This document shows, in pieces, positions 1,415 through 16,067 of a DNA stretch of 64,000 nt (within the stretch, counting starts at the first letter, position 1; each line of letters opens with the position of its first letter). The position numbers and the translations under genes were made by a program. The notes beneath the pieces were generated by a model. The model had not been told where the DNA came from, made no database searches, and saw only the letters and a list, made by a program, of their open reading frames with translations. Source of the stretch: Pseudorhizobium endolithicum (lineage in GTDB: Bacteria; Pseudomonadota; Alphaproteobacteria; Rhizobiales; Rhizobiaceae). The stretch covers positions 203,343 through 267,342 of the forward strand of contig NZ_CABFWF030000018.1 in assembly GCF_902153245.2 (NCBI RefSeq), given 5' to 3'.

Positions 1415-2395
1415 ATGTCGATCGAAAGGTATGAATCCGTCGACTGTGTCGGACAGTCGGCCACCGGCGGGCGCTTCACACGCCGTGAAGCCTTGGCCCT
1501 GGGTTTCTGCCTGTGCTGTTTTCCCCGCCTTGGCATCGCCAGCGAATTTGCGAGACTGAAGGAATTGGGCAACGGCCTATTCATCCGTGAGGCGCCGCAT
1601 GAGGAGGCGTCGCCGGCCAACAAGGGGGGCATCGCCAATATCGGGTTCATCATCGGGCGCGATGGCGTGCTCGTCACCGATCCTGGCGGCAGCCTCGCAG
1701 ACGGAAACTGGCTCAAGGCCCGGATCAGGGAGCGAACCCGAAAGCCGATCCGGCATGTGGTGCTGACGCATGTCCATCCTGACCATTGTTTCGGGGCTGC
1801 TGCCTTCGTCGAGGAGCGGCCTGAATTTATTGGTCATCGTGGTCTGAGGGCCGCGCTGGATACACGCGGTGGTTACTACCGGGAGCGTCTCGCGGAAGTC
1901 CTGGGAGCGGAAGATGTCGGTGACGTCGTCTATCCTACGCAGGAGGTCGACGACGTCGCAGAGATCGATCTCGGTGACCGACGCTTTCGGATCACTGCCC
2001 ACCGAACGGCCCATACCGATTGCGACCTATCGATGCTCGACCTGTCGTCAGGCACGCTCTTTCCTGCCGACCTGCTTTTCGTGGATCGCGTTCCTTCGCT
2101 GGATGGCAGCCTCACGGGATGGTTGGCGGAAGCCGCGCGGTTGAAGGAGCTTGGCCCCGTCCGGGCCGTGCCGGGGCATGGTCCCGCACTGGTGGATTTC
2201 GGTGCGGCCGTGGACAGGCAGATAGGCTACCTGACCGCGCTTCACGATGAAACGCGACGGGCGATCGAAGAGGGTCTTTCGATAGACGAGGCCAGCCGGA
2301 AGGCGGCAGTTGGGGAAGCAGAAGGCTGGGCGCTGTTCAGCGACTATCATGGACGCAACGTCATCCAGGCCTACAAGGAACTTGAATGGGAGTAG
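1415..2395 (+). CDS. Metallo-beta-lactamase-fold hydrolase of the quinoprotein relay type
   Basis: 326 residues. After an N-terminal export-type segment with twin arginines and a short hydrophobic run (FTRREALALGFCLCCF), the protein carries a metallo-beta-lactamase core: HVHPDHCFG zinc motif near residues 115-123, an AHTDCDLS segment, and a late GHGPALVDFG. This matches the family called quinoprotein relay system zinc metallohydrolase, which occurs with PQQ alcohol dehydrogenases. The next two genes encode the SoxYZ-like carrier and the CxxxCW protein that define the same genomic context. Its substrate is unknown even in the family. No clear Shine-Dalgarno precedes the ATG at 1415, so the start is less certain than the identity. 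Confidence 0.85.
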   Translation: MSIERYESVDCVGQSATGGRFTRREALALGFCLCCFPRLGIASEFARLKELGNGLFIREAPHEEASPANKGGIANIGFIIGRDGVLVTDPGGSLADGNWLKARIRERTRKPIRHVVLTHVHPDHCFGAAAFVEERPEFIGHRGLRAALDTRGGYYRERLAEVLGAEDVGDVVYPTQEVDDVAEIDLGDRRFRITAHRTAHTDCDLSMLDLSSGTLFPADLLFVDRVPSLDGSLTGWLAEAARLKELGPVRAVPGHGPALVDFGAAVDRQIGYLTALHDETRRAIEEGLSIDEASRKAAVGEAEGWALFSDYHGRNVIQAYKELEWE

Positions 2396-2411
2396 CTCTC
2401 ACGTAACGCAT

Positions 2412-2418
2412 GGAGGAG
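2412..2418 (+). promoter_or_regulatory. Ribosome binding site deciding the SoxYZ-like start
   Basis: GGAGGAG at 2412-2418 lies inside a longer open frame that could begin at ATG 2410. It sits 6 nt before ATG 2425 and 3 nt before ATG 2422, so translation most likely begins at 2425. Confidence 0.6.
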
Positions 2419-2424
2419 AAGATG

Positions 2425-3240
2425 ATGCCGATGATGCGACGGACTTTTTCGACTGCTCTGCTGACCATGTTCTGCGTCAGTTCGGCGCCCGGCGTGAATG
2501 CCTCAGAAGCGGACGCCGAGCGGGAGGAGCGCTGGCAGCAGATCGCCGACTACATTTTCGATGACCGCAAGGTGATCCCGACAGAGGCACTGATCAGCAT
2601 CGATGCCCCAAAGCGCGCGCAGGATGCAGCACTCGTGCCGATCACACTCAGGATGCCGGAGAAGGACAAGATCAAATCCGTCTATCTCGTGATTGACGAG
2701 AACCCGGTTCCCCTCGCCGCCCATGTCACCTTCGGTCCAGCCGCCGATGCGGGCGCCCTGCACTTGCGCGTGCGCGTCGATACCTACACCAACATTCACG
2801 CTGTTGCCGAAACGAAGGATGGAAAGCTGTTTTCCAACGCCGCCTTCGTGAAAGCATCTGGTGGGTGCTCGGCTCCTTCCGGACCGAGTGACGCCGAAGC
2901 GATGAAGGGCATGGGTGACATGCGGATGAAGTTTGCGGAGAACGTCCGACAGGGGACTCCCTCGGAAGCGACCTTGATGATCCGCCACCCGAACTTCAGC
3001 GGCATGCAGATGAACCAGCTTACCCGGCTCTACACGCCGCCACGGTACGTGGAAAAGGTGATCGTGTCTCAAGGCGACCAGACTATACTGGAAGTTACCG
3101 GCGACATTTCACTCTCTACCAATCCAGCCCTAGGCTTCAGCTTCGTGCCGGCGGGCCAGGCGCCGATCCGGGTGGTCGCGTCCGACAACAAAGGTGGAAA
3201 ATGGGAGCAGAGTTTCGACGTGCCGCTGGCAACCAATTAG
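2425..3240 (+). CDS. Quinoprotein dehydrogenase-associated SoxYZ-like carrier protein
   Basis: About 271 residues with a signal peptide (RRTFSTALLTMFCVSS...VNA). The N-terminal half resembles SoxY and ends in a single-cysteine carrier segment KASGGCS. The C-terminal half resembles SoxZ (IRHPNFSGMQMNQLTR...YVEKVIVSQGD). In sulfur oxidation SoxY carries the substrate on a swinging-arm cysteine; this fused family instead travels with PQQ-dependent dehydrogenases and its cargo is unknown. The cysteine sits mid-protein, at the SoxY/SoxZ junction, as expected for the fusion. It lies 29 bp after the hydrolase and about 10 bp before the CxxxCW gene, so the three probably form one operon. Confidence 0.85.
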   Translation: MPMMRRTFSTALLTMFCVSSAPGVNASEADAEREERWQQIADYIFDDRKVIPTEALISIDAPKRAQDAALVPITLRMPEKDKIKSVYLVIDENPVPLAAHVTFGPAADAGALHLRVRVDTYTNIHAVAETKDGKLFSNAAFVKASGGCSAPSGPSDAEAMKGMGDMRMKFAENVRQGTPSEATLMIRHPNFSGMQMNQLTRLYTPPRYVEKVIVSQGDQTILEVTGDISLSTNPALGFSFVPAGQAPIRVVASDNKGGKWEQSFDVPLATN

Positions 3241-4123: not shown

Positions 4124-4494
4124 ATGGACAGGCGCATCAGATCCTATCCCTGGACTGACACTAGCCTAGAATCAACCGGCACATGGCCGACATCGCTTTC
4201 GACACTGGTTACTGTCATGCTGGCCTCGAACCAGGCTATGCTCATCGCGTGGGGACGGGAGCAACTCCTTCTTTACAACGATGCCTACTCAGATCCTCGC
4301 GTCCAAGCATCCGCAGGCCCTGGGCCGAGACTTTCTTGACGTCTGGGAGGAGATCCGCGGCGATCTCATTCCAATCGTTGAACAGGCCTGCGCGGGCGAA
4401 CCCACCCACATGGATGATATCAAGCTCATCATGCGCCGGAAGGGCTATCCGGAGGAGATGCATTTCAGCTTCTCCATGTCATGTAGAGAGAAAT
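4124..4494 (+). pseudogene. Frameshifted N-terminal remnant of a PAS-domain sensor histidine kinase
   Basis: Two overlapping frames together read as the conserved start of a rhizobial PAS sensor kinase. The first (from 4124) gives WPTSLSTLVTVMLASNQAM, LIAWGREQLLLYNDAYS. The second (from about 4291) continues with KHPQALGRDFLDVWEEI and later MRRKGYPEEMHFSFS. The frame changes at about 4289-4291, and the second frame ends at a stop right after the PAS-like HFSFS segment. No kinase, GAF or receiver domain follows before the next gene. It is therefore a truncated, frameshifted relic, not an expressed sensor. Confidence 0.75.
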
Positions 4495-4738
4495 GATGGC
4501 AGGCGAGCTCGCGAACCTCACGGCTGGGCAATGACCGCTTCTCGGCGGGCGCGACAGCAAGCCTCAAAGGCCGAAACGGAGGCACGACCGGACTATCCGC
4601 TTCCGGGTCTATCCCCGAGAAAGCGGAGATTATAGTTGCAAAATGTCTGCTACCCAGCCACCTCGTGCCGTGGTAAATCTATTCTTGGGGGCGCTATGCT
4701 GGGTTGATAGACGCGGTGGAACCGCAAGGCGCACTCCG

Positions 4739-6526
4739 ATGCACCGAGCTGAGGGCATACGTGCGGAATACAGGCTGTACCTTCTGGGCTCATTTGCCCT
4801 GACGGATCGCGATGGTACGTCCCTGGCCCCCAAATCTCAGAAGACGCAGGCGCTATTGGCGATGCTCGCTCTGTCTCGGCGGGGTTCACGGTCCCGGGTC
4901 TGGTTGCGGGACAAGCTCTGGAGCGACCGGCCCGAGGAGCAGGCTTCCGCAAGCCTGCGCCAGGCACTACTGGAGATCCGGAAATCGCTGGGGCCAGCAC
5001 GCGATCTCGTGCGGGCAGACAAGCTCACGGTGTGGCTGGATCTGGACCGGGTGGAACTGGACATCAACCAGGCAACGGCTTCCGAGAGTGCCTGTGATCA
5101 ACTCCTGGAGGGAATGGACGTCCGTGACCCGGAATTCGAGGAGTGGCTCACGCTCGAACGGCAAAACTGGCAGACAAGGGTCCAACGCGACCGCGAGGGC
5201 GGTGACGCCCGATACCTGGAAAGACCTTCCGATCTTGCCCTGTCCGGTGATCTGTCCCCCTTCGGGCAGTATCAGCGTGCAGGGACAGATGTCCTTGTCC
5301 GGGGGGCCCGGGAGGAGACGACGTCGTTCGATGCGACACCTCTGAGACCGGTTTTGATGCGCTTGCAGCCCCCGCAGGTGATCGGGCTCGGTGACAAAGG
5401 CCGGATCGTCGCGCTGCGACTGCAGACTCTTCTGACGCGGTCGCTCAGCGAAACACTTGGGATCGGTGTCGCCGATCTTTCGTTCGATACCCATTCTGCG
5501 CCGGGTATAGAGGCAGATCCGTCCCCTGCCAATCTTCTCCCGATCACCGTAAAGATGCGTCTCACGTTCGAAGGTGATGCAGTCCTTGCGCAGGCTGTCA
5601 TCCGACGGAGATCCGATGGAGTGCATATCTGGTCGGGCGAGCAACTGGCCAGCCGCTTCGCGGTCCGGTGCGGCAGCATGTCGGAGCTGCATCCAATCAT
5701 CACCCAGATAGTGGATCAGGTGGGGCAGTATCTACTCTCTCCCTGGGTGGAGGACAGCTCTTGTGCGGGCGCTGACCTCATTCACGCGATCGATTCCATC
5801 TTCAGGCTCTCCCGCGATGATCTCGCGCGCGCAGAGCGGCTGCTGGATCGCTGCATCAGACAATCACCAGACGGCGCAGCCTTTGCCTGGCAGGCCTTCA
5901 TCCGAACGTTTCAGGTCGGGCAGAGATTCAGCATGGCCGATGCCGGCATTACGGAGGAGGCGCGCGATCTTTCGCGCAGGGCGCTCGAACTTGACCCCGC
6001 AAATCCTGTGTCCCTGGCTCTCGTCGGGCATGTGCACTCCTTTCTTTTCGCCGAGTACGAGCGCGCTAGCCACCTCTTCGAGAAAGCAATCCATCTCAAC
6101 CCTGCCCAGCCCCTGGGCTGGGACCTCTACGCCATGCTGCATTGCTTCACGGGCCAGCCCACCAAGGCGGTGGCGATCTCCAACTGGGTCCGCCAGTTGG
6201 TCACCCATAGCCGGTACAAGTATTATTTCGATACGACGCGGTGCGTCAGCGCGGCTCTTGCGGGCGACTACGCGGCCGCGATCGCGGCTGGAGAGGAAGC
6301 TCTGATGGAGCGGCCCCAGTTCAACTCGGTTCTACGTTACCTTGCAGCGAGCCACGCCCATGCCAACCATACCCATGAGGCACAAAATTACCTCATGCGC
6401 CTGCAGGCGATCGAACCGGATGTTTCCATCAGCGCCCTGCGGGAAAGCCGCTACCCACTGTTGGGGACCGAAGGGGGACAGTTGTTGATCGAAGGTCTGG
6501 TCAAGGCAGGTATCCGTTCACAATAG
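4739..6526 (+). CDS. SARP/BTAD-type winged-helix regulator with C-terminal TPR-like region
   Basis: About 595 residues from ATG 4739; the frame is open back to 4643, so the start is uncertain. Residues ~10-105 form an OmpR/SARP winged helix: LYLLGSFALTDRDG, then SQKTQALLAMLALS, LRDKLWSD, and EEQASASLRQALLEIRKSLG, as in bacterial transcriptional activation domain proteins. The C-terminal 250 residues carry TPR-like helices (ARDLSRRALELDPANPVSLAL, EKAIHLNPAQPLGWDLYAML). SARPs are DNA-binding activators that recognise heptamer direct repeats at 11-bp steps; such an array occurs at 9387-9426. No transmembrane helix is evident. PAP2, subtilase and small YYxG genes follow on the same strand, so this is probably their local regulator. 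Confidence 0.8.
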   Translation: MHRAEGIRAEYRLYLLGSFALTDRDGTSLAPKSQKTQALLAMLALSRRGSRSRVWLRDKLWSDRPEEQASASLRQALLEIRKSLGPARDLVRADKLTVWLDLDRVELDINQATASESACDQLLEGMDVRDPEFEEWLTLERQNWQTRVQRDREGGDARYLERPSDLALSGDLSPFGQYQRAGTDVLVRGAREETTSFDATPLRPVLMRLQPPQVIGLGDKGRIVALRLQTLLTRSLSETLGIGVADLSFDTHSAPGIEADPSPANLLPITVKMRLTFEGDAVLAQAVIRRRSDGVHIWSGEQLASRFAVRCGSMSELHPIITQIVDQVGQYLLSPWVEDSSCAGADLIHAIDSIFRLSRDDLARAERLLDRCIRQSPDGAAFAWQAFIRTFQVGQRFSMADAGITEEARDLSRRALELDPANPVSLALVGHVHSFLFAEYERASHLFEKAIHLNPAQPLGWDLYAMLHCFTGQPTKAVAISNWVRQLVTHSRYKYYFDTTRCVSAALAGDYAAAIAAGEEALMERPQFNSVLRYLAASHAHANHTHEAQNYLMRLQAIEPDVSISALRESRYPLLGTEGGQLLIEGLVKAGIRSQ

Positions 6527-6560
6527 ACCATGAAGCGCCGACGAAGTGAGGAGGGACAAG

Positions 6561-7526
6561 ATGCCGGAAGCTCAGTCGCCAGCGGTAGCATTTCTCAACG
6601 CGTTCCCGTTTAAGGTTGAGCCTGACACTGTCCTCTCCTGCGGCGCCGATCATGCCGCATCGACGCCGCCGGATCGTGTTCCGTCGACACATTCGGCTGC
6701 TCGGGATGAAGCAGGTGAAGCGGGCCTGATCTTGCCGCCCAGTAGGGTCATGATGGCGATGTCTGTCATGCACGTCGCCAATAAAGCGGTGCTCAACAAG
6801 AACAAGAACAAGAATAAAAACAAGAATAAGAACAAGGCCGCGGGCGGCATCACGGCCCAGGCTGCCGCGCAGCTTGTTCCAGCCTTCGAGATACGGCGGC
6901 TCCATCAACAACCATCCCGTAACGCCTTTAATGCCGCAAAGCGGTTCTGCTGGGAGACGCTGGATATCCTGCCGCCTCCGGGGCCCGACTATACACGGCT
7001 GGAAACCGCAGTCCTTCTATCCATGCAGAGACGGGATCGAGAGCGGGCAAGGCGACTGCCGGACATCGAAAGCGAGGCGACGATCTCGCTGTCCGAGTTC
7101 ACCCGTCCGCTTCACGTGGAGGACATCAGCGGCTATTCGGCCACCGAGGGCTTGTTTCAGTCGATCCTGACAGCGTGTGAATATGTCGGGCTTATCTACA
7201 AGGACAAATTCGACAGGCTAAGGCCTAGCCACTTCGAGCCGCTGCTGAGACCCCTTCTTGCTGTCCCGCCGCATGCGGCCTTCCCAAGTAATCACGCTTT
7301 CCAGTGCTATTCGGTGGCCTTCGCCTTCGCAACAATCCTGCCGGAGCATCCGGCCACGGACGAGCTTGCGAGGATCGCCCAGAACGTCGCGGAGAACCGG
7401 GAGTGGGCGGGCCTGCATTACCCAAGCGATACAGCCGGCGGCCGTGAACTCGCCCGTCGCTTCGCCCCCTATCTTCACGATGCCTTCGGCCCAAGCTTCC
7501 AGGCGGTACGAGCAGAGTGGATGTAG
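6561..7526 (+). CDS. PAP2/vanadium-haloperoxidase-fold enzyme with an Asn-Lys repeat
   Basis: 321 residues; ATG 6561 follows GAGGAGGGA (6548-6556). All three PAP2/haloperoxidase active-site motifs are visible: K214-x6-RP (KDKFDRLRP), PSNH at 242-245 with the phosphate/vanadate-contacting region and His245, and NR-x5-H-x3-D at about 279-290 (NREWAGLHYPSD). Canonical motifs have PSGH and SR, so Gly to Asn and Ser to Asn changes are notable. The fold serves acid phosphatases, lipid phosphatases and vanadium haloperoxidases; sequence alone does not decide. No signal peptide or membrane helices are obvious. Residues 79-92 are seven Asn-Lys pairs. It lies between the SARP-like and subtilase genes. 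Confidence 0.8.
   Translation: MPEAQSPAVAFLNAFPFKVEPDTVLSCGADHAASTPPDRVPSTHSAARDEAGEAGLILPPSRVMMAMSVMHVANKAVLNKNKNKNKNKNKNKAAGGITAQAAAQLVPAFEIRRLHQQPSRNAFNAAKRFCWETLDILPPPGPDYTRLETAVLLSMQRRDRERARRLPDIESEATISLSEFTRPLHVEDISGYSATEGLFQSILTACEYVGLIYKDKFDRLRPSHFEPLLRPLLAVPPHAAFPSNHAFQCYSVAFAFATILPEHPATDELARIAQNVAENREWAGLHYPSDTAGGRELARRFAPYLHDAFGPSFQAVRAEWM
6795..6836 (+). repeat. Seven tandem 6-bp units (AACAAG type) inside the PAP2-like gene
   Basis: Seven in-frame hexamers encode (Asn-Lys)7; five are AACAAG-like and two are AAT-containing variants, with one AAA for AAG. The unit being a multiple of three lets copy number change without a frameshift. It sits in the N-terminal region before the enzyme domain. 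Confidence 0.9.
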
Positions 7527-7564: not shown

Positions 7565-9253
7565 ATGGCAGTCACTTCTGAGCACCCCAGCGAAGTTCCT
7601 GAACCCTACTATTATCTATGGCACCTTGCCGCGTTGAAAGTTATCGACGCAGACTTCGGGGCGGCACCCGCCACTCCGTCCAATCCAGACATTCCGGCAG
7701 TACGAGAGGCGTGCAGACCCACGGTCAGGTCCACCGTATGGGATCAGATCGCTGCGGCCGGAACCGTGGTGCCCGCCAGTGTGGCTCTCATCGACGTCGG
7801 CATCTGTCCAGATCACCCGAACCTGAAGACGCGTCTCGATCGGGACCGCTCGATTGACCTGGCTTCGCATCCCTTCGGGGCCCGGACCATCGCCAAATAC
7901 GACGAACTAGATCCTTATGGCCCGGAACAACAGGAAACCTTCTTTTCTGACCTGGACGTGACGGGACTTGGTGACCTCGGCCTCTCCAACGATGACAAGG
8001 CGTATTTCGACAGCCTCACTGCAGAACTCGCTGCGTCCAGGGGATGCGTCCGGCGGCTGATAAATCCGGAAGCCCTCTTCGGTGCCCACGGGACAGCCTG
8101 TGCTGGCCTGATTGCGGGCGAACCAGCGGCCATTGCAAGTGGCACTGGCGAAGTGACTATCCCGGAGACGCTCTTTGCAGAACCCGGACCTGAGGCCGAG
8201 CCGAACAGAAACCGAAATGTACTTCCGTATTTCGGCGTCGACCCCTTTTCCCGCTTGATCTCGATCCGCACCTCCTTCGACGCGGATCCCGCGCAGTTTA
8301 TTTGCGCGTTCTTGTATGCCTATCAGCAGCAGGCCGACGTCATCGTGCTCCCTCGCGGGCTTCCAGACCCTGAAAACTCCCGTCTCGAACCGAAGGCAGA
8401 GCTGACCACCGATGCCGGGCTCTACCAGAACCGCCTGATGGAGGACCTTGTGAAACGTCTCTCACTCGCTGGTGAAGCAGAAGAACTAGATCCGAAGTCG
8501 CCGCAGCCTACCGAGAGCGGCCGCAGGCTCTGGAGGATTCTCCGGCACGTTATCCTTGGGGTCAGCCGCAAGATCCCGATTGTTTGCGCGGCCGGAAATA
8601 GCGGTGAGAGTCAGCTCATCTATCCGGCGAATCTTGCTGAAGACGACAACGGAATTATCGCCGTTGGAGCAGTCACAGTCGAGGGTTTCCGCTCCGGATA
8701 CAGCAATTACGGCCACGGACTTACCCTGGTGGCTCCCTCCGATGACCAGGAGGTCATCAACCGCCACCAGTTGCGCGTCGACCAGCAGTCCCCGTTTCAC
8801 GCCCGCCACGCTCACGTTGCAGGCCCCGCCAAGGAGTACCGCTATTCTGGCCTCGGATTGCTGACGACCGACCTTCCCGGCTGCTGGGGCTATGAGCGCG
8901 GAGACGATCCATGGTCGTCGCTTCCCCTCGAAGATAACCCGGGAATCGGAGGCGGCTACTATACCAACTTTGGAGGAACATCCGGGGCCTCTGCGTTGAT
9001 TGGGGGCATCTGTTCCCTGATCCAGAGAGCTCACAAGACCAGGCACGGGCAAAGTGCCAGGCTTGGCGGAGTGGCGGTAAAGGCACTGCTCGTGGCAGCT
9101 TGCGACCAGCAACGGGTCGTGGTGCCAGGGTTTCGACCGCTCACGCCTGACTGTATGAATTCAGACGAGGAAGACGGCAAAGGCTCCGCCTACTTCTTTG
9201 GAGCAGGACTGCCAGACGCAGCTGCAGCCGTTCAGGCAGCTCTCGCATCCTAA
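7565..9253 (+). CDS. Subtilisin-like serine peptidase (S8 family)
   Basis: 562 residues starting at ATG 7565 after AGGAGG. The catalytic triad is readable: Asp77 in VALIDVG, His175 in GAHGTACAG, Ser473 in GGTSGASALIGG; Asn345 in CAAGNSGES is the oxyanion residue. The usual Pro after GTSxA is absent (GTSGASALIG). No signal peptide is present, so it may act in the cytoplasm or leave by a nonclassical route. The gap between His and Ser is long, with an insert of acidic and aromatic sequence. It follows the PAP2-like gene by 38 bp and precedes the small YYxG genes. A role in processing the small proteins is possible but only inferred from position. Confidence 0.9.
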   Translation: MAVTSEHPSEVPEPYYYLWHLAALKVIDADFGAAPATPSNPDIPAVREACRPTVRSTVWDQIAAAGTVVPASVALIDVGICPDHPNLKTRLDRDRSIDLASHPFGARTIAKYDELDPYGPEQQETFFSDLDVTGLGDLGLSNDDKAYFDSLTAELAASRGCVRRLINPEALFGAHGTACAGLIAGEPAAIASGTGEVTIPETLFAEPGPEAEPNRNRNVLPYFGVDPFSRLISIRTSFDADPAQFICAFLYAYQQQADVIVLPRGLPDPENSRLEPKAELTTDAGLYQNRLMEDLVKRLSLAGEAEELDPKSPQPTESGRRLWRILRHVILGVSRKIPIVCAAGNSGESQLIYPANLAEDDNGIIAVGAVTVEGFRSGYSNYGHGLTLVAPSDDQEVINRHQLRVDQQSPFHARHAHVAGPAKEYRYSGLGLLTTDLPGCWGYERGDDPWSSLPLEDNPGIGGGYYTNFGGTSGASALIGGICSLIQRAHKTRHGQSARLGGVAVKALLVAACDQQRVVVPGFRPLTPDCMNSDEEDGKGSAYFFGAGLPDAAAAVQAALAS

Positions 9254-9386
9254 TCGAAGCCCGGCAACAGGCCCCGTCTCCATCTTAGCCGCCCGCATCA
9301 CAGGTCGCGCCTGCACCCCGGCTCGTGCCGCTGATGCAGCCGAGGTTCGGCCGTATCTTCGTCTTTTCTTCCTAGTTTGCGCTTTT

Positions 9387-9426
9387 TTGACGCGGCGTTG
9401 ACGCTGGCCTCACGCCGGGCTGACGC
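9387..9426 (+). promoter_or_regulatory. Four heptamer direct repeats at exact 11-bp spacing (candidate SARP operator)
   Basis: TTGACGC (9387), TTGACGC (9398), CTCACGC (9409) and CTGACGC (9420) are separated by 4-nt spacers; a weaker TTTGCGC sits one step upstream at 9376. SARP and PhoB/OmpR-type winged helices bind such heptamers on one DNA face. A possible -10 (GATGCT, 9435-9440) lies 8 bp after the last repeat, the distance reported for SARP promoters. The array precedes the first small YYxG gene. Confidence 0.65.
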
Positions 9427-9509
9427 CTGCGCGCGATGCTCCCACCAACAAAAAAGGCGGCCACGGCGATACGGACCGGGTCCCGAGACGGAAGAAGGGA
9501 GAAGAAGTG

Positions 9510-9725
9510 ATGATGAACCAGATTCACCAGGTCGCTCCGGCCTTCATGGCGTGGATCGCATTGAGTGGCGGCAGCCATGAGAGCGATGCGATCTTCCGGG
9601 CCAGCCAGTCCGTGATCGGCCTTCAGCGCGATCAGCAGGGCTGGGAAGCGGCGACCAAGCGAGAACGGCTGGTCTTCGGATCCAACAAGGCCGGCGACTA
9701 TTACGAGGGCGCGCTTCCCCCTTAG
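9510..9725 (+). CDS. Small protein ending in a GDYYEG motif
   Basis: 71 residues, not recognised as any family. ATG codons at 9510 and 9513 and a GTG at 9507 share the frame; the purine-rich GAAGAAGGGAGAAG lies just upstream. There is a mildly hydrophobic stretch near the N-terminus (APAFMAWIALSGG) but no clear signal peptide. The C-terminus is KAGDYYEGALPP, which matches motifs in the next two small proteins. It is the first gene after the heptamer-repeat array and is likely co-transcribed with them. The composition (charged middle, Gln-rich) gives no hint of an enzyme. Confidence 0.65.
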   Translation: MMNQIHQVAPAFMAWIALSGGSHESDAIFRASQSVIGLQRDQQGWEAATKRERLVFGSNKAGDYYEGALPP

Positions 9726-9794
9726 CGCCCAACGCCTTGGAAGCATGAACAAGCCGCCCATGAGGGCGTGGAAAGGAAACCGGAGGATGAAACC

Positions 9795-10019
9795 ATGAGG
9801 AAGACACTGTTGATGGCAGCCTTGCTCACTGTTGCAGGCATGCCGATCGCATTCGCTGGCGAGGGCGAATACTACCGGGGTACACAGCTCGCACTCGGGT
9901 TCATGCCTGTTGACCAGGTGGTCACTGGCGGCCCGCGATGGAGGCACCCGGGGATACCCCGCATGCCGACGTCGAGAGACAATCGTCTACCGAACGATGA
10001 CCTGAGGGGCATCCGGTAG
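9795..10019 (+). CDS. Small exported protein with GEYYRG at the mature N-terminus
   Basis: 74 residues from ATG 9795, which follows CCGGAGGATG at suitable distance. The first ~22 residues form a classical signal peptide (MRKTLLMAALLTVAGMPIAFA) with an AFA cleavage site. The mature chain starts GEGEYYRGTQLALGF and ends in a Pro/Arg-rich tail. No known domain. The G-E-Y-Y-R-G segment lies a few residues after the cleavage point, as in the neighbour at 10102. Likely periplasmic or secreted; function unknown. Confidence 0.7.
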   Translation: MRKTLLMAALLTVAGMPIAFAGEGEYYRGTQLALGFMPVDQVVTGGPRWRHPGIPRMPTSRDNRLPNDDLRGIR

Positions 10020-10101
10020 CCAACATCATTCCCGGAATACTCAATCGACAAACCAACCGCAGGGAGGACAGCCCCTGCATCCAAAGTGAAAGGACAGGAC
10101 A

Positions 10102-10344
10102 ATGAAAACCACGAACGCAATTATTGCGGCCGCATTCATCGCAGCCGCAGCCCTTGGGACCGTAGCATCTGCAGCCGAAGGGAACTACTATCCTGGTGCA
10201 GGGGGTTCGACTGGCGCAATACATGGGCCGGGCATCGACCGCTTCACGACCCAGGGGATCAACCCCGTCTCGCCGCGCCCGATGAGGGACAACCACACGA
10301 TCGACAGCGGCGATTACTACCAGGGTGTCGATCGCAATCGTTAA
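10102..10344 (+). CDS. Small exported protein with two YYxG motifs
   Basis: 80 residues; ATG 10102 follows AAAGGACAGG. A signal peptide (MKTTNAIIAAAFIAAAALG...ASA) is followed at once by AEGNYYPGAGGS, and the protein ends with DSGDYYQGVDRNR. It thus carries the motif at both ends of the mature chain, combining the arrangement of the two preceding small proteins. The middle is Gly/Pro-rich with no predicted fold. Unrecognised family. It is the last gene of the cluster; the next gene is convergent. Confidence 0.7.
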   Translation: MKTTNAIIAAAFIAAAALGTVASAAEGNYYPGAGGSTGAIHGPGIDRFTTQGINPVSPRPMRDNHTIDSGDYYQGVDRNR

Positions 10345-12786: not shown

Positions 12787-15012
12787 ATGTCAAACAGCGA
12801 TCGTCGACTGGATTGGATCTTCGGCACAGGCGTGCTCAGCCTCCTTCTTCTCCCCTGGTATCGGATCGAGCTCGGCTTCTTCAATCTTTCCTGGCTTACC
12901 GGCTTCATGGGTGATGAAGACCTTGCTCCAGCCATTCTTCAGGCAAGCACAAGTGGACGCTGGTGGCTCTGGGGAGCGATCCTATTGTTTGCCGCAGCGA
13001 TGCTGGTGCGGGTGCTGCAACCGGTGTCGGAAAGACGTGGAACGTTACTTGCGCTGATTGGCGCCGCCGGAGTGCTCTTTGTCGCCTTCCAAGGCCTGGC
13101 GATCACTTTCGCCGGATGGACGTGGACGATCTTCGAAGGCCTCTTTGGGCCGCTTTCAGCCGGCCAGCCTGCAATGGGCGCCGGTGCGATCACCTTGTCC
13201 ATCATGTTCGTACTGATGTTCTCCTTTGGCTGCGCGGAGCGCGGCGTGATGAAAGGCGATGCGTTTATCGTCAGCGCGATTTCGCTCCTGGCTTTTCTGG
13301 TCGCAGTCTTCGTATTTTATCCGATCATCAGCATGTTCGTCGGTGCGTTCCAGGATTTCGACGGGTCCTTCAACCCGGATGGGTTTCTACGCAACATCGT
13401 CGACCCGTCGATCTGGAGCCTTGGCTGCGTGATCGGAAGCGAGCGCTGCGGCGTCGCCTGGCGAACCTTCTTCCTCGCCGTCACGACCGCTTCCGGCTCA
13501 ACGCTTCTCGGTCTTGCCTTTGCTCTGGTCGCCACCCGCACTGGCGTCCGGTTCAAGAAGGGGCTGCGGCTTCTCACGATCTTGCCGATCATTACACCTC
13601 CCTTTGTGATCGGTCTTGCGCTGACATTGTTGTTCGGTCGGGCGGGCGTCGTCACGGAGGGGCTGTCGCAGCTCTTCGGCATCGAGCCTGGGCGCTGGCT
13701 TTACGGGTTGACCGGTATCTGGATCGCGCAGGTCCTGTCGTTTACACCAATTTCCTTTTTGGTCCTGATCGGCGTGGTGGAAGGCGTGTCCCCCTCGATG
13801 GAGGAAGCGTCCCAGACGCTGCGGGCCGACCGATGGAGAACCTTCTGGCACATCTCCCTGCCGCTGATGAAACCAGGGCTCGCCAATGCCTTCCTGATCG
13901 GGTTCATCGAGAGCATGGCGGATTTCGGCAACCCGCTGGTGCTGGGTGGCAGCCACGGCGTCCTGTCAACCGAGATCTTTTTTGCCGTTGTCGGCTCCCA
14001 GAATGATCCTTCGCGCGCCGCGGTTTTAGCAATGATCCTCCTTTGCTTCACGCTGTCGGCCTTCGTCGCCCAGCGGCTGTGGCTCGGAAAGAAGAGTTTC
14101 GCGACAGTGACCGGCAAGGGTGATAATGGCGTCCACGCCGCCCTCCCCCGCTCCGTTGCCATCGGCGTCCACGCCCTTGTCATCCCTTGGGCGGTGTTCA
14201 CGCTCGTCGTCTACGGCATGATCATCGCCGGCGGCTTCGTGAAGACCTGGGGGTTGGATAACAGCTTCACCCTGCAGCACTATAATCGCGCGTTCTCCAT
14301 CAGCATCACTGACAGCGGCATCGCATGGACTGGCGTGGCTTGGAATTCGTTCTGGACCACGATGGAGATCGCTTTGATCTCTGCACCACTGACGGCAGCT
14401 GTCGGACTGATGACGGCCTATCTCATCGTACGCCAACGTTTCGCTGGCCGAGATCTCTTCGAATTCGCCCTGATGATGAGCTTTGCTATCCCAGGCACAG
14501 TTATCGGCATCAGCTATATCATGGCCTTCAACCTCCCGCCGCTCGAGATGACGGGGACGGCCGCAATCCTCATTGCCTGCTTCGTCTTCCGCAACATGCC
14601 TGTGGGCGTGCGAGGCGGGGTCGCTGCCATGAAACAGCTGGACCAGAGCTTGGACGAAGCCTCTCTTACCTTGAGGGCAAACAGCTTCCGGACAATCCGC
14701 AAGGTGATCCTGCCATTGCTTCGTCCAGCCATCACGGCTGCGCTGGTCTATTCCTTTGTGCGCGCGATTACCTCCATAAGTGCCGTCATTTTCCTGGTCA
14801 GTGCCGAGCACAATATGGCGACGTCCTATATTGTCGGGCTGGTGGAGAATGGCGAATACGGTGTTGCAATCGCCTATTCCTCCGCCCTCATCATCGTGAT
14901 GATTGCCATTATTGCCATCTTCCAGCTGCTGGTCGGCGAGCGTCGGTTACGTCGCGCCAGCCGCCTTGCCATTTCTATGCCTGCGTCGGCTCCCAAGGAG
15001 AAACCCGCATGA
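12787..15012 (+). CDS. Fused FbpB/AfuB-type ABC permease with N-terminal membrane extension
   Basis: 741 residues from ATG 12787 (preceded by GGCAGGGAG). The first ~190 residues hold four or so membrane helices not part of the permease core. Two permease domains follow, each with an EAA-loop motif: SMEEASQTLRADRWRTFWHI and SLDEASLTLRANSFRTIRKV. The double-domain arrangement is normal for FbpB-like permeases, where one chain supplies both membrane halves. Its stop overlaps the next gene's ATG by 4 bp (ATGA), showing translational coupling. It would carry the substrate bound by the upstream binding protein across the inner membrane. Confidence 0.9.
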   Translation: MSNSDRRLDWIFGTGVLSLLLLPWYRIELGFFNLSWLTGFMGDEDLAPAILQASTSGRWWLWGAILLFAAAMLVRVLQPVSERRGTLLALIGAAGVLFVAFQGLAITFAGWTWTIFEGLFGPLSAGQPAMGAGAITLSIMFVLMFSFGCAERGVMKGDAFIVSAISLLAFLVAVFVFYPIISMFVGAFQDFDGSFNPDGFLRNIVDPSIWSLGCVIGSERCGVAWRTFFLAVTTASGSTLLGLAFALVATRTGVRFKKGLRLLTILPIITPPFVIGLALTLLFGRAGVVTEGLSQLFGIEPGRWLYGLTGIWIAQVLSFTPISFLVLIGVVEGVSPSMEEASQTLRADRWRTFWHISLPLMKPGLANAFLIGFIESMADFGNPLVLGGSHGVLSTEIFFAVVGSQNDPSRAAVLAMILLCFTLSAFVAQRLWLGKKSFATVTGKGDNGVHAALPRSVAIGVHALVIPWAVFTLVVYGMIIAGGFVKTWGLDNSFTLQHYNRAFSISITDSGIAWTGVAWNSFWTTMEIALISAPLTAAVGLMTAYLIVRQRFAGRDLFEFALMMSFAIPGTVIGISYIMAFNLPPLEMTGTAAILIACFVFRNMPVGVRGGVAAMKQLDQSLDEASLTLRANSFRTIRKVILPLLRPAITAALVYSFVRAITSISAVIFLVSAEHNMATSYIVGLVENGEYGVAIAYSSALIIVMIAIIAIFQLLVGERRLRRASRLAISMPASAPKEKPA

Positions 15013-16067
15013 ACACGCCCGGCTCGGTGGTATTCCAAAACATCCGAAAGACATTTGGTGCGTTCACCGCGATCCACGACCTTTCGATCACCATTAAGCC
15101 AGGGACGCTCGTGACCCTGCTCGGGCCGTCTGGCTGCGGAAAAACAACGACGCTTCGAATGCTGGCCGGCTTAGAGCATCCTAGCGCCGGCCGCATCCTG
15201 ATCGGCGGCAAGGACGTCACCATGCTTCCGGCAAACGAGCGCGATGTCTCCATGGTTTTCCAGTCCTACGCGCTGTTCCCGCACATGTCTGCCCTGCAGA
15301 ACGTGGCCTACGGCCTCGAATCTTCAGGGATGAAGCTAAAGGAAGCGCGCGAGCGCGCCGAAGAGGGACTGCAACTCGTAGGACTTGCCGGAATGGGGGA
15401 CCGTCTGCCGGCCGAACTGTCAGGTGGACAGCAGCAGCGGGTGGCAGTTGCACGGGCACTTGTGCTGGAGCCCCAGGTGCTGCTTCTCGATGAGCCTCTT
15501 TCCAACCTCGACGCCCGTCTGCGCCGGCGGGTGCGAACGGAGATCCGGGAGCTTCAACAGAGGCTTGGTTTCACCGCGGTTTACGTGACCCATGATCAGG
15601 ATGAAGCGCTTGCGGTTTCGGACCACATCATCGTCATGAAGGATGGCAGGGTAGCGCAAGAGGGCGCACCGCGCCAGCTTTACGAAGCGCCCGCCTCGTC
15701 GTTCATCGCCGACTTCATGGGCGAAGCAAATGTCATGTCGTGCCAGGTCATCGCCATAGAGGGGGAAGAGGCCATGATCCGGCTCGGCTCGCTGACGCAC
15801 AAGGTACCGAAGCGCGATGTGATGCAGGCAGGCGAGGCAAAGCTGGCGGTACGTCCAAATGCAATTACTCTTGAGCCCGCCGCCGATGCTCCCTTCGGCG
15901 GCGTCATCAGCCATGCTGCCTATCTTGGCGATCACGTGGAATACGAAGTTGAGACAGAGGCAGGCAGAATCTTTGTCGTTGATCAGGCCGTAGACCGGAT
16001 ATTGCCGTCTACCACGCCCGTGTCCGTTGGCTTCAAGCAACGCGGCATTGCCATCATCACCAATTGA
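15009..16067 (+). CDS. ABC transporter ATP-binding protein (FbpC/AfuC/PotA type)
   Basis: 352 residues. Walker A is GPSGCGKTT, Q-loop SMVFQSYALFPHM, signature LSGGQQQRVAVARAL, Walker B VLLLDEPLSNLDA, switch His in VTHDQDEAL. A C-terminal TOBE-like region (~residues 250-350) follows, with LAVRPNAITLEP. It energises the preceding permease, starts inside that gene's stop codon and ends 34 bp before the phosphatase gene. Confidence 0.93.
   Translation: MNTPGSVVFQNIRKTFGAFTAIHDLSITIKPGTLVTLLGPSGCGKTTTLRMLAGLEHPSAGRILIGGKDVTMLPANERDVSMVFQSYALFPHMSALQNVAYGLESSGMKLKEARERAEEGLQLVGLAGMGDRLPAELSGGQQQRVAVARALVLEPQVLLLDEPLSNLDARLRRRVRTEIRELQQRLGFTAVYVTHDQDEALAVSDHIIVMKDGRVAQEGAPRQLYEAPASSFIADFMGEANVMSCQVIAIEGEEAMIRLGSLTHKVPKRDVMQAGEAKLAVRPNAITLEPAADAPFGGVISHAAYLGDHVEYEVETEAGRIFVVDQAVDRILPSTTPVSVGFKQRGIAIITN

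Follow-up and report, generated by a model that had tools for sequence, protein, structure and literature searches.

In Streptomyces the textbook cluster-situated activators are the SARPs, which switch on antibiotic genes and are defined by one domain, the BTAD. A 2024 review, in the portion of its text available, calls them exclusive to actinobacteria (PMC10972967). According to the available sections of PMC10936776, the repeats of SARP promoters are spaced at 11 or 22 bp, the one at the 3' end standing 8 bp from the -10 element, and AfsR places one protomer on each 11-bp repeat, overlaps the -35 element and holds region 4 of sigma. PhoB, as described in the accessible part of PMC4415409, arranges its effector domains head to tail on Pho boxes. 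The 64,000-nucleotide stretch of the Pseudorhizobium endolithicum contig NZ_CABFWF030000018.1 analysed here (the window) has an array of four heptamers at 9387-9426, in front of three small genes, which is very likely to be the operator of the cluster's own regulator, encoded at 4643-6526.

The heptamer array and its neighbourhood

All elements of the array lie on the forward strand. Heptamer 1 (TTGACGC, 9387-9393) and heptamer 2 (TTGACGC, 9398-9404) are followed by heptamer 3 (CTCACGC, 9409-9415) and heptamer 4 (CTGACGC, 9420-9426). The 4-nt spacers read ggcg, tggc and cggg, and the steps are exactly 11 bp. A weaker fifth heptamer, TTTGCGC (9376-9382), stands in phase ahead of the four and is found in locus L037 too. 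In most orthologous sites heptamer 3 reads CTGGCG- and heptamer 4 reads ATGACGG. The box GATGCT (9435-9440) begins after an 8-bp gap (9427-9434) and would, like its counterparts in relatives, serve as the -10 element; by eye, none of the rhizobial array promoters shows a -35 hexamer at the usual distance. An earlier note on this DNA had reported four phased heptamers, GATGCT 8 bp past the last of them, small YYxG genes downstream and an arrangement like that of SARP operators. Direct reading bears out the heptamer positions, their 11-bp steps and the place of GATGCT, and adds the fifth heptamer; the small genes are indeed there, three of them with (D/E/N)YYxG motifs; and the 11-bp direct repeats and the 8-bp gap match the SARP promoters as given in the available text of PMC10936776.

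The array is singular in its surroundings. A three-heptamer pattern with up to three mismatches has three matches in the window, all within the array and two of them free of mismatches, against a mean of 0.23 and a largest count of 2 in the shuffled window. A two-heptamer pattern meets a single place in the 4.19-Mb genome, namely the array (three overlapping matches), and its reversed-pattern control gives 0. The strict three-heptamer pattern has no match beyond the window's own genome among 297 family genomes, because heptamers 3 and 4 take forms that differ by position; a broader pattern found the relatives.

The first small gene (9507-9725, forward strand), which starts with GTG at 9507 or ATG at 9510 and encodes the sequence AGDYYEGALPP, would be the first gene of the proposed target operon. 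The second (9795-10019, forward) carries GEYYRG after an N-terminus that by eye resembles a signal peptide, and the third (10102-10344, forward) carries EGNYYPG and SGDYYQG together with a similarly signal-peptide-like N-terminus. The regulator gene ends 2.9 kb upstream of the array on the same strand, and two genes conserved in the cluster lie between. One encodes a PAP2-domain protein (6546-7526, forward) with a run of about seven Asn-Lys pairs that is kept in five aligned orthologues. The other encodes an S8 subtilase (7565-9253, forward) with weak mycosin and PatA-type matches below the cut-off. Ahead of the cluster, at 1415-3240, are genes for a quinoprotein relay system metallohydrolase (TIGR04559) and a SoxYZ-like fused carrier (TIGR04557).

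The regulator of the cluster

The proposed activator (4643-6526, forward strand; 627 aa) has a predicted winged helix at about residues 43-140 and a CadC-like/TPR C-terminal part. A Pfam scan at E 0.01 finds TPRs and gives a match neither to the BTAD (PF03704) nor to Trans_reg_C; the L032 orthologue has no PF03704 match even at E 0.1, and when the regulator is set against the BTAD by eye the first helix region alone aligns. The genus paralogues L040 and L041 do have a BTAD match above the cut-off. At the sequence level, the AfsR model gives a weak match over residues 33-140 (E 3e-4, 18.9 bits with a cut-off of 1430), the HilA/EilA model also matches weakly, and EmbR by sequence profile alone gives E 0.46, which is too weak to decide.

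The AF2 model of residues 43-210 (pLDDT 82.5) has as its five best PDB matches the AfsR SARP, in initiation complexes, and EmbR, at E 2.8e-4 to 2.4e-3, probability 1.00 and TM-scores of 0.57-0.60, whereas the best response regulator reaches E 0.22. The full-length model (pLDDT 75.8) is matched best by the CadC periplasmic domain (3ly8) and by TPR proteins. In the alignment, the winged-helix region is strongly conserved across the regulators. The DNA-binding domain, as modelled, and the operator are thus both of SARP type, but the protein is not classed as a SARP because no BTAD is detected. The earlier description of a SARP-like gene upstream on the same strand is thereby kept in its winged-helix fold, as predicted, while the family name turns out to be too strong. 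Elsewhere in the genome (L039 6022-6418; G000 contig C11) lies a broken duplicate of some of the sequence that codes for the regulator's N-terminus, together with its upstream DNA.

The regulator gene has an array of its own in many relatives. Three heptamers (e.g. TTAACGC, TTGACGC, TTGACAG) stand 5' of it in 11 of 17 clusters, as counted with a search expression that was written after several examples were known; L089, whose stretch ends within the gene, falls outside this test. In the 17-cluster comparison this array is absent from the window, L037, L087 and L043. The corresponding DNA of the window (4183-4642, 5' of the regulator gene) by eye resembles part of a truncated PAS-kinase-type gene, and its appearance suggests a rearranged junction.

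Distribution of the array and of the cluster

Among 60 relatives, the array (up to two mismatches) occurs in all seven with a strong regulator match and in one of the 53 others (Fisher 2e-8, uncorrected for relatedness); a strong match means here E below 1e-60, a cut-off of our own, and 17 of the 60 match at E 0.001. The one other genome, G333, matches the array with two mismatches and has no regulator match. When at most one mismatch is allowed, seven of 394 family genomes match and the reversed control gives zero. Four of the seven are genus genomes, all with the S8 gene; the other three belong to another genus, and there the array lies 5' of a DUF3419 gene, on whose strand it can be read as a Pho box. 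In G305 (L037) the array is kept though the regulator is reduced to an N-terminal piece.

Of the 17 clusters whose sequence was read over a longer stretch, 16 have four-heptamer arrays, 27 in total; a second reading of an array one register earlier is left out of this count, and L092 and L046, taken to be one record since their contigs are equally long, are counted once. A box of the form GAWRNT, a consensus derived from these same sites, follows exactly 8 bp after the array in 26 of the 27; the exception is AATAGT in L043. For nine dissimilar sites, chosen by hand, the information content per position is 1.31-1.58 bits in the heptamers, 0.67 in the spacers, 0.72 in the 8-bp gap and 1.10 in the -10 box. 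The proteins beside the arrays are 50-60% identical, and the heptamers and the -10 spacing are kept while the spacers differ. Five genus relatives have the regulator at 50-52% identity, with a PAP2 gene and then an S8 gene behind it as in the window, and each has two four-heptamer arrays, one in the interval between the S8 and hydroxylase genes and one before the small genes. Each genus cluster with the HExxH-type gene, 11 in all, likewise has two such arrays.

The profile behind most of these counts was built from the heptamers of the window and L032, and many of the sites come from close relatives and are not independent. Because the profile had this origin, the array was tested again starting from proteins, the loci so found being scored with this same profile. 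A search with the S8 alignment across 57 genus genomes yields 13 matches, among them the window's own genome, and in every one of these the array lies no more than 1.5 kb from the S8 gene; G451, G454, G463 and G465 among them are additional to the genomes behind the earlier comparisons. A search with the PAP2 alignment, which effectively used the low-complexity NK run alone, led to four loci, in the Rhizobiales isolate AFS010580, Rhizobium sp. BK602, Aminobacter anthyllidis and Neorhizobium sp. SHOUNA12A. These hosts (Neorhizobium, Rhizobium, Aminobacter and an unclassified Rhizobiales isolate) are all Rhizobiales and thus lie outside actinobacteria. Three of the four loci have the array. The exception, Aminobacter L045, encodes a regulator 44% identical and lacks a four-heptamer array; a loose three-heptamer match before its regulator gene is not counted as support.

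The phasing was examined with a profile of the window's four heptamers alone. A period of 11 is the best of ten in eight of nine loci, with scores of 18.8-22.5 in those eight and at most 16.7 for other periods. Locally shuffled loci (n=90) reach 18.5 at most, with a median of 11.2, and the two lowest of the eight loci (18.8 and 18.9) are barely above that maximum. In L045 the best period is 9 (19.0), not 11. The best place is the array before the regulator gene in L034 and L035, and one register ahead of the promoter-proximal four in L036 and L043. A comparison of orthologous loci for phased heptamers, as proposed in the earlier note, thus finds them in 16 of 17 clusters and in 13 of 13 subtilase-positive genus genomes; the regulator-operator pair envisaged there is supported by the co-occurrence and by the predicted SARP-like DNA-binding fold, though no BTAD is detected in the regulator.

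The setting is wider than the earlier note described, and fuller relatives have two or three such sites. In the five genus relatives, the DNA beyond the S8 gene has matches to a 482-aa protein, which in L036 is partial, and to ThiF, and three of the five (L032, L033 and L034) also have a methyltransferase match. The 482-aa protein belongs to TIGR04267, the aKG-HExxH peptide beta-hydroxylase, which scores above the cut-off in all four proteins scanned (L032, L033, L043 and L044). Two small genes come after these enzyme genes, the second with two YYxG-type motifs. A scan of 13 loci for the hydroxylase motif, nine of which match the expression and four of which do not, gives HEAGH in L043 and L044 and REAGH in L032, L034, L035, L088, L089, L091 and L092; going by this motif, the genus hydroxylases may be inactive. 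Overall, the fuller clusters look RiPP-like in gene content, and their product would be a RiPP. Anti-phage defence was considered and rejected as a function: padloc gave ThiF E1-E2 matches, one mad2 match for the methyltransferase and none for the other five proteins.

In L044, an array at 12794-12833 stands before a radical SAM gene, a pair of precursor-like genes encoding 110 and 107 aa, and the gene for the hydroxylase, and seems to head biosynthetic genes there. The longest radical SAM frame opens within the array, so its true start probably lies later. One of the precursor-like genes is weakly NHLP-like, below the cut-off, and neither is matched at E 1e-4 in any of the remaining 16 clusters. 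The region 12827-15041, with the radical SAM maturase-like gene and then the two precursor-like genes, is a candidate RiPP system, and we know of none of this make-up.

The HExxH-type, ThiF and methyltransferase proteins of L032 have no match within the 64-kb window, and ThiF has none in the whole genome at E 0.001. In the window and in L087 the regulator, PAP2, S8 and small YYxG-type genes alone remain; in G305 (L037) a regulator fragment and the small genes remain, with the array still there. The window cluster looks like a reduced version of the fuller ones, which would have shrunk stepwise with the promoter kept, if reduction is the direction in which these loci have changed.

Candidate regulators and comparison with known systems

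Across genera the array goes together with the cluster and with the regulator gene linked to it, and the paired motif occurs at one place only in the genome, which makes it unlikely that another OmpR-family regulator (such as ChvI) or an unlinked SARP-like paralogue is the protein that binds it. Such a protein could nevertheless be imagined, as 11-bp phasing is general for this fold, the genus has true-BTAD paralogues (L040 and L041), G305 has the array alongside a mere regulator fragment, and a putative 11-bp ChvI motif is reported in the available part of PMC3687685. ChvI in particular was set aside: in that partial text its motif is uncertain, and the array tracks the cluster instead.

Very unlikely, too, though the main rival reading, is that PhoB binds the array as Pho boxes read from the opposite strand and places it under phosphate control. 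The likeness is real: Pho boxes, too, consist of heptamers separated by 4 nt (PMC4415409, available part), in E. coli CTGTCAT, and the opposite strand of the array, GCGTCAA, resembles one. The operator pattern (at most one mismatch) was moreover met in three genomes of another genus at Pho-box-like arrays upstream of a DUF3419 gene, and G333 matches the array pattern (two mismatches) in the absence of a regulator match. However, PhoB boxes are oriented towards the -10, and as Pho boxes the 27 arrays would face away from the conserved -10-like box and the downstream genes; the left-hand gene in the window, the subtilase, is also on the forward strand, ending at 9253. Heptamer 3 has little likeness to a Pho box in the form that most sites show (CTGGCG-), and the array goes with the cluster (7/7 versus 1/53), whereas PhoB is to our knowledge to be expected in all the genomes compared. 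A loose Pho-box pair pattern (at most one mismatch) has 76 matches in the genome against 36 in the control, and the array is not among the matches listed. Pho boxes were rejected as the explanation on the strength of the reversed orientation and the distribution. In L047, L048 and L049, at about 1490-1560, four-unit 11-bp arrays with a weaker fifth unit, Pho-box-like on the opposite strand, sit between an ArsR-type and a DUF3419 gene (both genes were scanned in L047 only), the latter presumably of the BtaA family.

A chance or selectively neutral tandem repeat, for which the likeness of the window heptamers to one another and the G+C-rich region might speak, can practically be dismissed, as the array is kept beside 50-60%-identical proteins with differing spacers and retained -10 spacing, and the reversed-pattern controls are zero in 394 family genomes.

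With the cluster's own regulator on the array, the SARP-type winged helices of several protomers would line up along a single face of the DNA, each on its own heptamer. The bound activator would then recruit RNA polymerase as SARPs do ('sigma adaptation'); a role of the activator in bringing in the polymerase is proposed because a -10-like box is present and no -35 box is seen by eye. The small YYxG genes (9507-10344) would be switched on via the array, and in fuller clusters another array would act 5' of the HExxH-type hydroxylase, ThiF and often methyltransferase genes, while the three-heptamer array before the regulator gene may provide autoregulation. By analogy, an AfsR-like mechanism is the most likely one at the rhizobial promoters. 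We lean, with some reserve, towards a wider proposal in which the TPR part is the sensing part, SARP-type activation operates outside actinobacteria without a BTAD, 11-bp heptamers with an 8-bp gap control a Rhizobiales RiPP cluster, and the operator has been kept through stepwise decay to a few genes for exported YYxG peptides. That a conserved operator shares the SARP geometry, and the regulator next to it the DNA-binding fold as predicted, suggests a mode of promoter activation that is older or has been more widely transferred. The short array motif offers a means to find and switch on silent rhizobial peptide clusters, and the array-regulator pair is a natural test of whether the SARP mode works without a BTAD.

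Compared with PhoB and its Pho boxes, the array shares the heptamers with 4-nt spacers but is reversed relative to the -10, has another sequence and tracks the cluster, and no receiver domain was found in the regulator. The CadC/HilA-type regulators of Proteobacteria have, like the protein studied here, a winged helix with an alpha/beta plus TPR region behind it, yet in the predicted model the winged helix of the regulator is closer to those of AfsR and EmbR, and we know of no operator of 11-bp heptamers with an 8-bp gap for regulators of that type. The aKG-HExxH RiPP clusters of Pseudomonas (pfl and pos; PMC12636437, available part) have the TIGR04267 enzyme in common with the fuller relatives, one locus of which also has radical SAM maturase-like and precursor-like genes; they differ from the window, which has no match to the modifying enzymes. 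In the available text of PMC12636437 the terms SARP, regulator, ThiF and methyltransferase do not occur. Among the open-licence PMC papers listed for SARPs in Proteobacteria or rhizobia, titles and abstract openings gave no such operator outside actinobacteria. The closest described systems are the SARPs themselves (AfsR with the afs box, ActII-ORF4 and DnrI). The rhizobial regulator differs from them in belonging to Rhizobiales, in having no detectable BTAD and in its CadC-like/TPR C-terminal part, and its operator in consisting of four TTNACGS-type heptamers with position-specific forms. What the two have in common is the winged-helix fold, as predicted for the rhizobial protein, the direct repeats of heptamers at 11 bp, the 8-bp gap to the -10 and a regulator gene placed within a biosynthetic-type cluster.
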